Made by a program: the position numbers and the translations under genes
Source of the DNA: a virus
Length of the DNA stretch: 37,863 nucleotides
Virus record (IMG/VR): IMGVR_UViG_3300030328_002153
Coordinates: 1 to 37,863 of that record
Reading direction: 5' to 3' (one strand)
Shown here: one piece after another, positions 20,210 through 28,517 of the stretch
Position numbering within the stretch: the first letter of the stretch is position 1
Layout: the number at the start of each line of letters is the position of its first letter
The notes under the pieces: generated by a model
Database searches by the model: none
The model's input: the letters and a program-made list of their open reading frames with translations, nothing else
Told to the model about the DNA's origin: nothing

Positions 20210-20461
20210 TTATAAATCAAGTTTCATTAGTTTTTTATCAACTTTAACCTTTTCATCGTCAGGTATAGAGTCAAAATATTCATACAATATTTCATATGCC
20301 TCTCTATGCCTATCCAAATCAAAAGCAAGTTTTTTAATCAACTCTTCAGCCTGCGCTATATATAAAGTTAATTGATTCTGACTGAATCCTATTACTTCTG
20401 TTTCTACCTTCAGACTATCTATTAACTTGTCTCCGGTTGTTCTATTGTCTATCTTTTTCAT
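20210..20461 (-). CDS. small helical protein, unknown
   Basis: The 83-residue protein is predicted to be two long helices (about residues 24-52 and 54-68) with an acidic turn (SIPDDEK). It has no Cys and no membrane segment. It starts at an ATG overlapping the stop of the preceding 51-codon gene (ATGA), so the two are coupled. It is the last gene before the internal promoter. Function unknown. Confidence 0.55.
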   Translation of the reverse strand: MKKIDNRTTGDKLIDSLKVETEVIGFSQNQLTLYIAQAEELIKKLAFDLDRHREAYEILYEYFDSIPDDEKVKVDKKLMKLDL

Positions 20462-20613
20462 TTACTATGTTCTCCCTGTATTAATTGACCTAGTTTTTTA
20501 TCAAACTCTTTTAAGGTCAATTCTCTGTTTAGTCTTTTCGTCCCATTATTGTGGCACTTAAAAAATATTTCTTGAGTAAGTCTAGGTATCGCTCCCTTAT
20601 TTAACTTCATCAT
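20458..20613 (-). CDS. 51-residue basic protein (short gene)
   Basis: The frame begins MMKLNKGAIPRLTQEIFFKC and ends LIQGEHSK. It is basic and mostly helical. GAGGAA lies just before the double ATG. The gene begins within the end of the co-chaperonin gene and ends in an ATGA overlap with the next, filling what otherwise would be a gap. These overlaps are the main support; no domain is recognised. Confidence 0.55.
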   Translation of the reverse strand: MMKLNKGAIPRLTQEIFFKCHNNGTKRLNRELTLKEFDKKLGQLIQGEHSK

Positions 20614-20878
20614 ATTCCTCCATTATTGCCATTATCTCTGTCTCTCTTAAGATAAGATTCTCTTCTCCTTCAGTTACGACTATTGTTCCAGAGTAGTCTG
20701 GAAAAACAACTCTGTCTCCTATAGATAAAGACTCTACTTTATCTCCTATCTCTAGAACAATTCCCGTAGACTGCTTTACTTGTTCTGTGGCAGTTAAGAC
20801 AATACCACTATCAGTAGTCTCTTTTGTTTCATCTCTCTTTACTAAAAGTCTATTATCTAAAGGTTTTATATTACTCAT
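20597..20878 (-). CDS. groES: GroES-like co-chaperonin
   Basis: The 93-residue protein (from the ATG at 20878) has the Cpn10 pattern: IKPLDNRLLVKRDE at the start, a mobile-loop region KETTDSGIVL (about residues 18-27), TGIVLEIGD, then IGDRVVFPDYSG and ENLILRETEIMAI at the end. Phage co-chaperonins replace host GroES so that the chaperonin can fold bulky viral proteins such as the capsid (T4 gp31 is the model). The ATG at 20884 gives two more residues; the chosen one repeats the ATGAGTAA overlap used throughout this operon. Confidence 0.85.
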   Translation of the reverse strand: MSNIKPLDNRLLVKRDETKETTDSGIVLTATEQVKQSTGIVLEIGDKVESLSIGDRVVFPDYSGTIVVTEGEENLILRETEIMAIMEEYDEVK

Positions 20879-21122
20879 TGTCAACTACCATTTCATCGTC
20901 GCAAGTCATATTGTCTAGAGCATAGTCTTTATTCTTGTCTTGCTCTGCGTCTATAATTTCTTGCTCGTCTAATTCGTTATTCTCTCCAGTGTTCCTATTG
21001 ACAATCTCGCTAGCCCAACCTGCTCCTTCTATATATGTAGTCTCTATGCTATATCCTAATTCATATAGTTTTGAAATCCGATTTACTATTTGCGACTGCA
21101 ACTTTATTGCTTCTTTACTCAT
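20871..21122 (-). CDS. small acidic protein, unknown
   Basis: The 83-residue protein has a helical first part (SKEAIKLQSQIVNRISKLYELG) and a very acidic second part (NELDEQEIIDAEQDKNKDY, then CDDEMVVDNE). Both ends use the ATGAGTAA overlap. An SD (GAGGAG) lies upstream. Acidic phage proteins of this size sometimes mimic DNA or inhibit host enzymes; no such evidence exists here beyond charge. Confidence 0.55.
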   Translation of the reverse strand: MSKEAIKLQSQIVNRISKLYELGYSIETTYIEGAGWASEIVNRNTGENNELDEQEIIDAEQDKNKDYALDNMTCDDEMVVDNE

Positions 21123-22354: not shown

Positions 22355-24217
22355 CTAAGTTTCAATATACTCACTTATTTTGCTACTATTCAGTTCCAAC
22401 CTTACGTCTGAAAAAATATCTGATACAATAGTATCAGAAGTCTCTTGTATCGCACTAATAGTCGGTATTCTATGCTCAATCATACTTACGTTTTTAAAGT
22501 CGCAATCAAGATTGTCATACTCTACAAACCTAGTAGTTCTACTATAGCAATTTTCGACGTGTTCCGGGTCTGAAAACTGACCGTGTTCCTGTCTTGTTTT
22601 AAGCCATTGTCTATAGAACTTTCTAGTCTCAATCGGAATTTCAAATAGTTCAAACATATTGTCTATGGTCATAGTAGGTCTATTATAAGCACCTAGACCA
22701 CAAGCCACTCCGACTAAAGAAGAAAGGTGTCTAAAGTCATATGCGTCGCCAAATTCAAGTTTAGGGATTTTTAATTCTTCCCTTATCTTTTCCGACATTC
22801 TTAAAAATGCAGGATTATTTAACAACGAATCTTCTGAAGTGCTTTCTTCGTCCATAACTACCCTGTAAGTAGTTCTAATTTGAGACTCCAGTTCTTCAGA
22901 GACTACTCTTTGTAACGACTTTATAAAAGGCGTTCTTGCAAACCAGTTATCTCCGTCGTCATATCTATCCTTTAGTTCATTTCCGATTTTGTAGCACTTA
23001 TCTACAATCTGTCCCCAGACTATAGACCAGTGCATCATTTTCGTCGGATTTAAAGTTCCGGAGTGATAACGAATTTCTAGTCCTTGTTTTCCTTGAAAGT
23101 GAGAATGAAGATTGAGTCCGTGATATCTTTTGTCGTGATATTTTTCATTTCTATATCTCTCTCCGTCGTAGTAAAAATCTACGAAAGAATCCCTGTCGTC
23201 GATATGTCTAAATTGACTCCAAGTTTGAGAAACTGGCAGACACCACCTAGACGTTCTACGGCTAGACGGCATCCAACAAAAGACGTGAGGCTCAATCAAC
23301 TTAACCATTGCAGTTAAGACTGCGAAATGATACCAGTCGTAGTCTCTAACATCTATATGAAGATGATATCCGCACTTAACGCTTATATATGCGTCCCATT
23401 GACTCTTCATTGTTTCCGAAATAGTCTCTAGGTCTCTAACTAGGACGTCTCCACGACGAGGACTCATTACAATCTCTGCCCCGTAAGGATGATTTTCTCC
23501 AGTTACAGAACCGTCGTTAACTACTTGTAGACTTCTGTCCATATACTTAACCCAATCATACATCTTAAAACGTGAAGTTCTAGTCTGCATAATATTTCCG
23601 TTTAAGTTATGGAACATCTCTTCTCTATCAAATCTGTCGTAACAATTAAATTCTATTTCAATTCCTTGATAACGACAAGATTTTATAATAGAGTGAGAGT
23701 CTTTGAAATTGCTTCGTTCACTTCCGAGAACGTCAAACTTCTTTTTCTTAATTGTTCCAAATTCCGACATATCATATCCGGAACTAGAAGGGCTTAAGAA
23801 TTGGTCGTTTTCTACGACAAAGTTATTAGCCATTACTGTCCAATCTACTTCGTCTCTTGCTCTTTCTCGTCTTTCATCATAGCAATGCTCACAATAACAA
23901 TCGTCGTAATCGCTCCAATGACACTCATCAACGTGAATTGCGTCGCCGCAACTATCACAATGATTAAAAGTCTCAGAGTAGCACTCCTGACAGAAAACTT
24001 GGTCTGTCGGAGTGTTGCACGACGTTGATATTACAGTCTCTTCGTTACAAGATTCGCAATCAACATAATGATTATCGTAACACTCCCGACAATAAATGTC
24101 TCCGTCGTTACTTTCTTGAGAATCGCTTTCAGATGTTATCGTTGTTCCACAAGTAAGACAGTTATCAACTTCGTCTTCTATGCGAGTAGAGTCTACCATT
24201 CTATAATGACTAGGCAT
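22355..24217 (-). CDS. amidoligase (COOH-NH2 ligase) with N-terminal zinc ribbons
   Basis: This 620-residue protein joins two parts. Residues 20-112 hold three CxxC-x(18-19)-CxxC units (Cys20/23-43/46, 54/57-76/79, 87/90-109/112), a zinc-ribbon or LIM-like array. Residues about 183-410 match the phage amidoligase family, related to glutamine synthetase: GIEIEF (185-190, metal-binding Glu residues), DGS to GAEIVMSP (235-253), CGYHLHIDV (282-290), RYHGLNL (364-370) and LEIRYHSGTLNP (380-391). Such enzymes use ATP to link a carboxylate to an amine. The coupled amidotransferase gene (8-nt overlap, ATGCCTAG) could supply ammonia. The substrate is unknown: peptide, cell-wall or nucleotide carboxylates are possible. 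About 200 C-terminal residues have no assignment. Confidence 0.85.
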   Translation of the reverse strand: MPSHYRMVDSTRIEDEVDNCLTCGTTITSESDSQESNDGDIYCRECYDNHYVDCESCNEETVISTSCNTPTDQVFCQECYSETFNHCDSCGDAIHVDECHWSDYDDCYCEHCYDERRERARDEVDWTVMANNFVVENDQFLSPSSSGYDMSEFGTIKKKKFDVLGSERSNFKDSHSIIKSCRYQGIEIEFNCYDRFDREEMFHNLNGNIMQTRTSRFKMYDWVKYMDRSLQVVNDGSVTGENHPYGAEIVMSPRRGDVLVRDLETISETMKSQWDAYISVKCGYHLHIDVRDYDWYHFAVLTAMVKLIEPHVFCWMPSSRRTSRWCLPVSQTWSQFRHIDDRDSFVDFYYDGERYRNEKYHDKRYHGLNLHSHFQGKQGLEIRYHSGTLNPTKMMHWSIVWGQIVDKCYKIGNELKDRYDDGDNWFARTPFIKSLQRVVSEELESQIRTTYRVVMDEESTSEDSLLNNPAFLRMSEKIREELKIPKLEFGDAYDFRHLSSLVGVACGLGAYNRPTMTIDNMFELFEIPIETRKFYRQWLKTRQEHGQFSDPEHVENCYSRTTRFVEYDNLDCDFKNVSMIEHRIPTISAIQETSDTIVSDIFSDVRLELNSSKISEYIET

Positions 24218-25340
24218 TTTCTTCTCCCTTAGTTCCTGCGTCGCAAATAGGCTTTACGTCGTTAGAGTCTGGGGCAAAATTATTGCCGTAAACTCTGTCG
24301 CTCATATCTTCTTCCGAATATTGTGAGCCGTCGTCTGTAAGATAATACCAACGACCTTGGTTTATGTCGTAATACCAATTATCTGATAAACCACCATATA
24401 TAGACGCAAGTTCGTCTTGTTCTCTTTTATACCATTCTTCGTCGATTCCACCGTCGTCGTCTAACATAAGACCTGAGTCTTTGTCAAGTTCTATCTCTAT
24501 TTGAGAATCGTCGTCGTTGAATTTTGAAGATAATATACTAGACCATACAGAACTATTATTTGTGTTGACGTCGTTAATGTATCTATTAATATTAACTTCG
24601 TAAACTCTACTTTCGTATTCAAACTTCGTTTTCGTCACATTAGTAATTTCGTCGCCAAACTCTTTAACGTCGAAACTATATAGTGTGTTTTTATTTAACT
24701 GATATACGTCTTGAGTATACCCGTTACACCATAAAGCGTCTTTTATAAAGTCGCTTTCCGACGCAAAGAAAAGAGTTTTTAGTTCCGTTACATATGCGAC
24801 GTGAAGCGGTCTATTAGACTCACGACACAAGTGCAATACATCTAGGTTATCCTTGACAAAACACAATGCAAAGTCGCTATCAAAATGTTTGACGGCTTCT
24901 TCTAATGTATTTGACTTATCTATAGACTTAAAGATTAATTGACTGTCTACCGGACAAACTTTGTCTAGTTTCTTTTCCATCTTCTCTATGTTATAGACAC
25001 AACCATTATGCGCTCCGACGGTATCTCCCACTTTAAAAGGGTGAGAATTCTCGACGGTAATTGCTCCTTGAGTCGCAAATCTTGTATGACCTAATATAAT
25101 CTTCGTGTCGTTTTTTAACGATTTTATGACGGAGTTATATTCTTTCGTGTCTACAAATTTTGAAGACTTAAGTAGTGATTTATGTATTTTGACTTCATTT
25201 CCGACTGATGCTATACCAGACGAATGACTACCTCTAGACTCAGAGTCTATTGCAATCTCTCGTAAAATGCGTCTAACATCCTTAAGTTGTTTCTTTGTAT
25301 AAGGTGTCGGAGATTTTGCCATTCCATATATTCCACACAT
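24210..25340 (-). CDS. class II glutamine amidotransferase
   Basis: The protein starts MCGIYGMA, so Cys2 becomes the N-terminal nucleophile after Met removal. RGSHSSGIA (36-44), GHTRFATQG (84-92), NSHPF (98-102), AHNGCVYN (110-117) and VDSQLIF (131-137) follow in the order of the GlmS/PurF glutaminase domain. It hydrolyses glutamine to glutamate and ammonia. No synthase domain follows; the C-terminal 120 residues are acidic and Tyr/Trp-rich (DDDGGIDEEWY and others), perhaps docking to the amidoligase. AAGGAA lies 8 nt before the ATG. With 376 residues it is longer than a bare glutaminase domain. The acceptor is inferred from the coupled amidoligase gene. Confidence 0.88.
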   Translation of the reverse strand: MCGIYGMAKSPTPYTKKQLKDVRRILREIAIDSESRGSHSSGIASVGNEVKIHKSLLKSSKFVDTKEYNSVIKSLKNDTKIILGHTRFATQGAITVENSHPFKVGDTVGAHNGCVYNIEKMEKKLDKVCPVDSQLIFKSIDKSNTLEEAVKHFDSDFALCFVKDNLDVLHLCRESNRPLHVAYVTELKTLFFASESDFIKDALWCNGYTQDVYQLNKNTLYSFDVKEFGDEITNVTKTKFEYESRVYEVNINRYINDVNTNNSSVWSSILSSKFNDDDSQIEIELDKDSGLMLDDDGGIDEEWYKREQDELASIYGGLSDNWYYDINQGRWYYLTDDGSQYSEEDMSDRVYGNNFAPDSNDVKPICDAGTKGEENA

Positions 25341-25594: not shown

Positions 25595-25607
25595 TTATTC
25601 TATGTCT
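25344..25607 (-). other. 87-codon open frame lacking ATG or GTG start
   Basis: The frame is free of stops between TAG at about 25608 and TAG at 25344-25346. The product would include NNSVSIYGSYSLDRRT and CVLCVGVLSKNLRICYGKYG, with Cys spacing that could hold zinc. The only canonical start is a TTG at 25472, giving 42 residues. It may be a gene with a rare start, a decayed gene, or simply open by chance because the DNA is GC-richer here. Confidence 0.25.
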
Positions 25608-26059
25608 CTATCTTCAAATCCTAGTCTATGTGTTGCATTAGAGCCACGAACTGCACTACGACTAGATTTTGCGACCATATCGCTAAACCAGTCTAACCTG
25701 CCTTTACGTCTTTCTTTAAATTGTTCGTCTGCCCAATCATTAAATTCTATGTGGCTTAACCTTGTCGCTCTATCAAAACGACTAGTAGGAAAAACGACGC
25801 TTATTCTATGTTCGGGTCTATGCATTTTAAATGCGACATTAGTTATAAACCAACGTGCGTCTTTCATATTCGTCGCAACGAATTCTGAAGTCTCATCATT
25901 AATGTGGTCTATCATTGTAATAGTCCAAGTTTCATCTTCATTATCGTCGGGAACACAAAGAACTTCTACGCTTTTAGGTAGCGTCTTAATTTCAACTTCT
26001 TCGCTTACCCATTGGCTACACGTCGGACATTTACTATGTCGCTTATATGTGTCTGTCAT
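25595..26059 (-). CDS. uncharacterised protein heading the amidoligase operon
   Basis: The 154-residue protein has one CPTC pair (residues 11-14) near the start and no second pair. The middle (ETWTITMIDHINDETSEFVATNMKDARWFITNV) is an alternating beta/alpha segment. The C-terminus is basic and Trp-containing. It is the first minus-strand gene after the divergent promoter region, so it is probably transcribed with the amidotransferase and amidoligase genes. The family is not recognised. It could be an early accessory or regulator of that pair. Confidence 0.6.
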   Translation of the reverse strand: MTDTYKRHSKCPTCSQWVSEEVEIKTLPKSVEVLCVPDDNEDETWTITMIDHINDETSEFVATNMKDARWFITNVAFKMHRPEHRISVVFPTSRFDRATRLSHIEFNDWADEQFKERRKGRLDWFSDMVAKSSRSAVRGSNATHRLGFEDRDIE

Positions 26060-28217: not shown

Positions 28218-28517
28218 ATGAAGAGAGGTTTAGTTATAGGAGGACATCCGTACGAAATTTTGACGTCGAAATTAGAGCACGAAGACAGAAATAAGGAATT
28301 ATACGGAAGACACCTAGTAAAAGAGAATGTTATATTAATAAATGAAGACATAGCGCCGTCTAGAATAAAAGAAACGCTGATACACGAAGTATTACACGCG
28401 ATTTTTTACAATACTGGATTAGAACACAATGAACGTCAAATAGAAGCCATATCAAATGGTTTATTTCAATTAGGAGTAGGAGAGTACTTATGGAAAAAAG
28501 CACAAAAGAAATCTTAA
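28218..28517 (+). CDS. small zinc metallopeptidase-like protein (HExxH)
   Basis: The 99-residue protein has HEVLH at residues 56-60 and downstream Glu (NERQIEAIS, Glu72 or Glu76), the layout of compact phage gluzincins related to ImmA/IrrE or SprT. Such proteases cleave a specific regulator or peptide, or may only bind zinc. GGGAGG precedes the ATG. It is the first gene of the packaging-side operon and overlaps the next gene by 28 nt. No HTH is present. With peptide-bond chemistry elsewhere in the genome, a role in processing a peptide product is conceivable but unproven. Confidence 0.7.
   Translation: MKRGLVIGGHPYEILTSKLEHEDRNKELYGRHLVKENVILINEDIAPSRIKETLIHEVLHAIFYNTGLEHNERQIEAISNGLFQLGVGEYLWKKAQKKS

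Follow-up and report, generated by a model that had tools for sequence, protein, structure and literature searches.

An uncultivated bacterial virus encodes, in two overlapping genes, a glutaminase and an amidoligase which we read, with a probability of roughly 0.55, as a two-subunit glutamine-dependent amide ligase that would dock its substrate or partner through a zinc array and act on a host target, with a separately encoded gamma-glutamylamine cyclotransferase (GGACT) acting on related gamma-glutamyl amides. The DNA analysed, hereafter the window, is the whole IMG/VR virus record IMGVR_UViG_3300030328_002153, of 37,863 bases; the coordinates of the relevant features are given in table 1. 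The Ntn-type subunit would hydrolyse glutamine at Cys2 and release ammonia. The ligase subunit, of the glutamine-synthetase fold, would activate a carboxylate as an acyl phosphate, with the help of ATP and metal, before joining it to this ammonia, or to an amine, to form an amide. The N-terminal zinc array would position the substrate or a partner protein, and the target would most likely be a host molecule, either a precursor peptide of the peptidoglycan type or a protein of the host. Transfer of ammonia to an amide is a plausible reading, and the nearest ligase folds, taken with the GGACT, suggest gamma-glutamyl chemistry.

Table 1. Positions of the enzyme pair and associated features in the window
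Feature	Position	Strand	Basis or remark
Amidoligase, 620 aa: putative zinc array, glutamine-synthetase-like core and C-terminal helical region	22355..24217	-	PF12224, predicted fold
Amidoligase core, residues 183-398	23024..23671	-	PF12224 match
Three tandem C-X2-C-X18/19-C-X2-C modules, LIM/treble-clef-like, residues 20-112	23882..24160	-	Cysteine conservation
Class-II (Ntn) glutamine amidotransferase, 376 aa, catalytic Cys2	24210..25340	-	PF13522, PHROG 4736, GlmS/PurF fold
Overlap of glutaminase stop and ligase start, 8 nt	24210..24217	-	ORF coordinates
AGGGAG Shine-Dalgarno-like element	24224..24229	-	Inside 3' end of glutaminase gene, 6 nt before ligase ATG
Small CPxC-motif gene	25595..26059	-	Upstream of pair, same strand; relatives' gene profile matches at 4e-53
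GGACT/AIG2 family cyclotransferase, 131 aa	31017..31412	+	PF06094, 5e-16

Genome context and gene pairing

The record belongs to a tailed phage, as profile searches of the window ORFs identified genes for the terminase large subunit, portal, major head protein, holin, DnaB helicase and exonuclease. End repeats were searched for in the 37,863-base record and none was found. Because no cellular homologue of the ligase appeared in a pattern scan of 84,980 genomes, and the cellular homologues of the glutaminase are three remote matches, all in MAG contigs, no host was inferred for the phage. The operon that contains the pair also holds the exonuclease, an SSB-like protein and the DnaB helicase. 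Such neighbours could point to hypermodification of DNA or nucleotides, with phage bases being amidated or aminoacylated, but no base-hydroxylating, deazapurine or thymidylate-modifying gene was seen among the window ORFs scanned, and we consider this role extremely unlikely.

A first, sequence-only reading of this DNA had described two genes overlapping by 8 nt; both lie on the minus strand, and the coordinates and the overlap are exactly as described. The relatives gathered for comparison comprise about 70 virus contigs which share gene order with the window and are therefore counted as one lineage. Wherever a relative's contig extends beyond the glutaminase, the next gene is the ligase, on the same strand (in L119 the ligase reading frame is split in two). 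As glutaminase and ligase overlap by 1-65 nt or nearly abut in the related loci, translational coupling of the two genes is likely. Adjacency recurs, in either gene order, in the distant loci L081 (ligase-glutaminase-ligase), L084/L085, L087, L089 and L154, as well as in PaP3, phiEco32, the actinophages Waltz and Ottawa and a spring-water podovirus, so that the neighbourhood survey proposed earlier finds the pair adjacent both across the lineage and in unrelated phages. The pair is under purifying selection, with dN/dS values of 0.1-0.4 for most close pairs and 0.6-0.75 for one contig pair.

Co-occurrence extends beyond this lineage. Among glutaminase-positive phage records, PF12224 is present in 17/17 and PF06094 in 11/17, the 17 having been picked across the glutaminase matches, that is, selected for having the glutaminase. 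None of the few controls (n=8: T7, lambda, T4, N4, P22 and three phages with a similar terminase) has the glutaminase, PF12224 or PF06094. One control, ICP2, belongs to the Zobellviridae and lacks the set that other members of the family carry; the enzyme set thus seems to be acquired or lost as a whole. A glutaminase of this kind occurs in hundreds of sequenced phage records, those of common Pseudomonas and E. coli phages among them, and every glutaminase-bearing record sampled also has the amidoligase.

Glutaminase and amidoligase core

The ligase matches PF12224 (Amidoligase_2) far above chance (E=2e-20, 73.9 bits against a cut-off of 22), a match shared by all 13 aligned relatives, and its best PHROG is 2443. 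All the motifs previously quoted as those of phage amidoligases are present: GIEIEF at residues 185-190, CGYHLHIDV at 282-290, HSGTLNP at 385-391, and GAEIVMSP. Thirteen residues are invariant in 60/60 ligases (E187, E189, D235, E248, H285, H287, R320, R364, N369, H371, E381, R383 and H385), and the ExE, HxH and E-x-R-x-H motifs, assigned to ATP and metal by analogy, are likewise found in all 60; the putative ATP site is therefore not lost. The AlphaFold model, built for the ligase alone and of moderate confidence (mean pLDDT 71.5), has YbdK as its first Foldseek match (1r8g/1tt4, probability 0.99-1.00), followed by GmaS (gamma-glutamylmethylamide synthetase) and GlnA, which agrees with the glutamine-synthetase-like fold expected for the protein. 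The TM-scores of these matches are low because of the extra domains and the moderate quality of the model. A single-sequence search with the ligase gave no match, and alignments were required to gather its relatives.

The glutaminase begins with MCGIYGMA and matches PF13522 (E=2e-13, 50.7 bits against a cut-off of 27, far above chance) and PHROG 4736 (2e-43). Its domain spans residues ~1-240 and is followed by an acidic linker of low conservation and then a short C-terminal piece. Residues C2, H85, R87, T90, H100, N112, G113 and D132 are invariant in 66/66 relatives, and the entire GlmS glutamine site, that is, the N-terminal Cys and the glutamine-binding residues, is kept. Comparison of the AlphaFold model with solved structures returns GlmS and PurF (E about 1e-11 to 1e-12), and asparagine synthetase and EgtC are also among the matches, EgtC ranking below GlmS and PurF. 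The earlier description of a GlmS-type glutaminase with an N-terminal Cys is borne out by these data, and the protein most likely frees ammonia from glutamine.

The presence of EgtC among the matches bears on the main chemical rival to our reading. EgtC-type class-II hydrolases have the same fold but remove gamma-glutamyl groups, and in EgtA-EgtC and related pairs a GCS/GS-type ligase works with a class-II Ntn hydrolase; the likeness of the window pair to these systems is the EgtC fold match. By this account the ligase would attach glutamate, through its gamma-carboxylate, to an amine as a protecting group, and either the Ntn protein, acting as an EgtC-like gamma-glutamyl hydrolase and not as an ammonia source, or the GGACT would remove it later. 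The nearest ligase folds are indeed gamma-glutamyl ligases (YbdK-like and GmaS), and the GGACT recurs with the pair. However, EgtC falls behind GlmS and PurF, the full GlmS-type glutamine site is retained, and making and breaking a single bond requires a reason, such as different timing of the two steps. We therefore regard protection and deprotection by gamma-glutamylation as unlikely.

A separate observation concerns the W-rich C-terminal piece of the glutaminase (residues 298-352), which was considered as a set of choline-binding cell-wall repeats and rejected as too weak: the PDB profile search gave E about 3e-4 with no stretch passing alone, and one member scored 0.09. No link to the cell envelope was found for the glutaminase or the ligase.

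Cysteine array of the amidoligase

The N-terminal modules of the ligase, spaced by seven residues, were absent from the sequence-only reading, as were the GGACT gene and the rapid divergence of the pair. Each of the twelve cysteines is conserved in 58-60/60 relatives, in a region that is only about 30% identical to that of the window, and the array probably binds zinc. The ligase model has a pLDDT of about 76-85 at residues 21-100 and of 65-70 at residues 101-120. The array profile has weak similarity to LIM proteins, and no clear homologue of known function was found for it. No CxxC occurs at the array position in one faecal sequence or in ten reference phage ligases (those of PaP3, Zobellviridae, phiEco32, Waltz, Ottawa, Bacillus, Rhizobium, Blautia, Porphyromonas and the spring podovirus), whereas ligases of the distant loci L081, L084, L087, L089, L090, L091 and L154 do carry a CxxC array. 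On the ligase tree the array label requires three changes, but many branches are long and a single origin is possible.

Proteins or nucleic acids are the usual ligands of tandem LIM/treble-clef-like modules, as is established for LIM domains, and the most likely role of the array is to hold the substrate or a partner protein. Our reading of the pair includes a host protein among its candidate targets, and the main rival as to the target goes further: the array would direct the ligase to a protein of host or phage, and the carboxylates of that protein would be amidated or coupled to an amine or amino acid. The weak LIM match and the recurrence of the array in several distant virus groups, set against its absence from the ten reference ligases, are consistent with such protein modification. 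On the other hand, it comes with no target, the array could merely hold the complex together, and the reference systems function without it; we treat protein modification as possible but tentative.

Arrays also occur in other arrangements. In L081 (6716-11227), and in the near-identical L082, two different zinc-array amidoligases flank a single glutaminase gene. In L089 (9968-13349) amidoligases lie on either side of the glutaminase, with cysteine modules of 9 and 4 CxxC; the two group together in the tree, which suggests a duplication.

Cyclotransferase and cassette members not found

The GGACT gene belongs to the packaging operon, with the small terminase gene region on one side and the large terminase gene on the other. 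A bare two-gene system had been entertained and was dropped once this gene was found. Searches of whole records with PF06094 were positive in 40/48, including nearly all of the window's lineage. GGACT enzymes cleave gamma-glutamylamines. The YGTLR motif (Y6, G7, T8, L9) and Glu63 are kept in 67-68/68 aligned sequences, the profile matches the AIG2-like structures 2kl2, 1vkb and 3jub, and E63 is the putative catalyst by analogy with human GGACT.

Of the families put forward earlier for profile checks, PF12224 and a GATase-type domain (PF13522) are thus present in this genome, and the second ligase, PF14395, was not found by profile search in the window or its lineage. A RimK-like ATP-grasp protein was likewise not found in either, with a profile that also missed the annotated RimK-like protein of PaP3, so that divergent ATP-grasp proteins could be overlooked. 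Since neither PF14395 nor the ATP-grasp was found, the window shares the core of the cassette described below and not the full form of LUZ24-like phages and phiEco32. The lineage therefore represents a reduced form, with one ligase, one glutaminase and one cyclotransferase, which separates the core from the extras.

The location of the GGACT among packaging genes allows a more speculative proposal, a reversible post-translational modification. The zinc-adaptor ligase and the glutaminase would amidate or gamma-glutamylate proteins early in infection, the cyclotransferase encoded with the packaging genes would remove the mark late, and the array would serve as a target-recognition module that diversifies with the host. 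We consider it distinctly unlikely.

Comparison with known systems

As a kind, the pair is already known; phage amidoligase-glutaminase pairs had been described beforehand, as the sequence-only reading noted (PMC3890496, PMC3517423, PMC10580990, PMC5498523). That reading knew of no demonstrated substrate, and none for such a pair was found in the searchable literature. The cassette of amidoligase, glutaminase, ATP-grasp and cyclotransferase was proposed by Iyer et al. 2009, according to the passages in PMC5498523 and PMC10580990 that refer to that work. The published guess for the phage cassette, cell-wall modification against superinfection, is traced to Iyer and colleagues in the corresponding passages of PMC5498523, PMC10580990 and PMC11318856, and no experiment on it was found in the searchable literature. 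As far as checked, what is new here is the zinc array, the separation of the GGACT into the packaging operon, the reduction of the gene set and the rapid divergence.

Cassette carriers include LUZ24-like phages (PaP3, tf, UFV-P2), the Kuravirus phiEco32 and Zobellviridae (PA11, PSA-HP1). The window shares with these groups a PF12224 ligase and a class-II glutaminase as neighbours or near neighbours, close to replication genes, and a GGACT is also found in PaP3, phiEco32 and several Zobellviridae. It differs from the LUZ24-like and phiEco32 cassette in the two members not found and in the position of its GGACT, in the packaging operon and on the opposite strand; the ligases of PaP3, phiEco32 and Zobellviridae lack the N-terminal zinc array that the window ligase has. 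In the Arthrobacter phages Waltz and Ottawa, as in the window, the ligase adjoins the glutaminase and no further ligase is annotated, but there is no zinc array and the gene order is ligase then glutaminase. In Waltz the GGACT lies just upstream, beside the pair, unlike the separate operon of the window. Prophage amidoligases of Clostridium clostridioforme are assigned to PHROG 2443 and occur with a gamma-glutamyl cyclotransferase (PMC11318856); they share this PHROG with the window ligase, and no glutaminase is reported beside them.

Cellular enzymes offer a further comparison. GatD is a class-I glutaminase, MurT a Mur ligase homologue and AsnB1 an asparagine-synthase-type amidotransferase. 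Neither MurT-GatD nor AsnB1 has a glutamine-synthetase-fold ligase, unlike the window, and the analogy is therefore functional only. Both combine a glutaminase with an ATP-dependent ligase and make carboxamides on peptidoglycan stem peptides, and so provide an established precedent for our reading of the pair (PMC3267633, PMC4155827).

Rate of evolution and possible targets

The median identity between the window and its lineage is 85% for TerL, 85% for the exonuclease, 79% for DnaB and 72% for the GGACT, but 56% for the glutaminase, 39% for the ligase and 29% for the upstream CPxC gene. Within the pair, identity is 67% and 51% in the catalytic domains and 22-31% elsewhere. The pair thus diverges far faster than the core genes, which fits the expectation for a variable host target. 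Relaxed constraint could likewise account for this divergence, as could adaptation to a metabolite in the version particular to the host; decay is disfavoured, because the active sites are invariant and dN/dS is low.

Slower change would be expected of a housekeeping or nutrient role, which is disfavoured on that ground. This applies to an auxiliary function in nitrogen metabolism, in which the enzymes would feed the nitrogen and amino-acid pools of host or phage during infection, as proposed for the Planctomycete phage ZRK32, which has the same enzyme set (PMC10945688). That proposal rests on phage growth effects and not on the enzymes, and an enzyme acting on small molecules would have no obvious need for a zinc array; we judge this role very unlikely.

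The earlier suggestion of host modification or anti-defence fared differently in its two parts. Host modification is the hypothesis preferred in the literature, and the rapid evolution of the pair agrees with it; anti-defence received no direct support. PADLOC gave no match for four proteins, in a collection that lists defence proteins and so covers counter-defence weakly. There are two handles on the target of the proposed amide ligase: the zinc array could be used as bait, and the pair changes faster than the core genes. A peptidoglycan target would bear on superinfection exclusion, and a protein target would amount to a new viral modification.

Other genes in the neighbourhood

The small CPxC gene was found in 64 related loci, 162-1195 nt upstream of the pair, and is very divergent. 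Searches of Pfam and the PDB with it returned no match. It was first suspected to encode the cyclotransferase, but does not; its product is a possible accessory or third partner of the pair. Downstream of the pair and on the same strand, a GroES (Cpn10) homologue (20597-20884, minus strand; PF00166, E=1.7e-20) represents a phage-encoded co-chaperonin. The ORF at 20210-20461 (minus strand) has a weak match to a replication terminator protein (winged-helix) family (E=0.001) and is a possible early regulator. On the plus strand, the gene at 28218-28517 has a weak SprT/M78-like metallopeptidase match and is conserved in 68 related loci.
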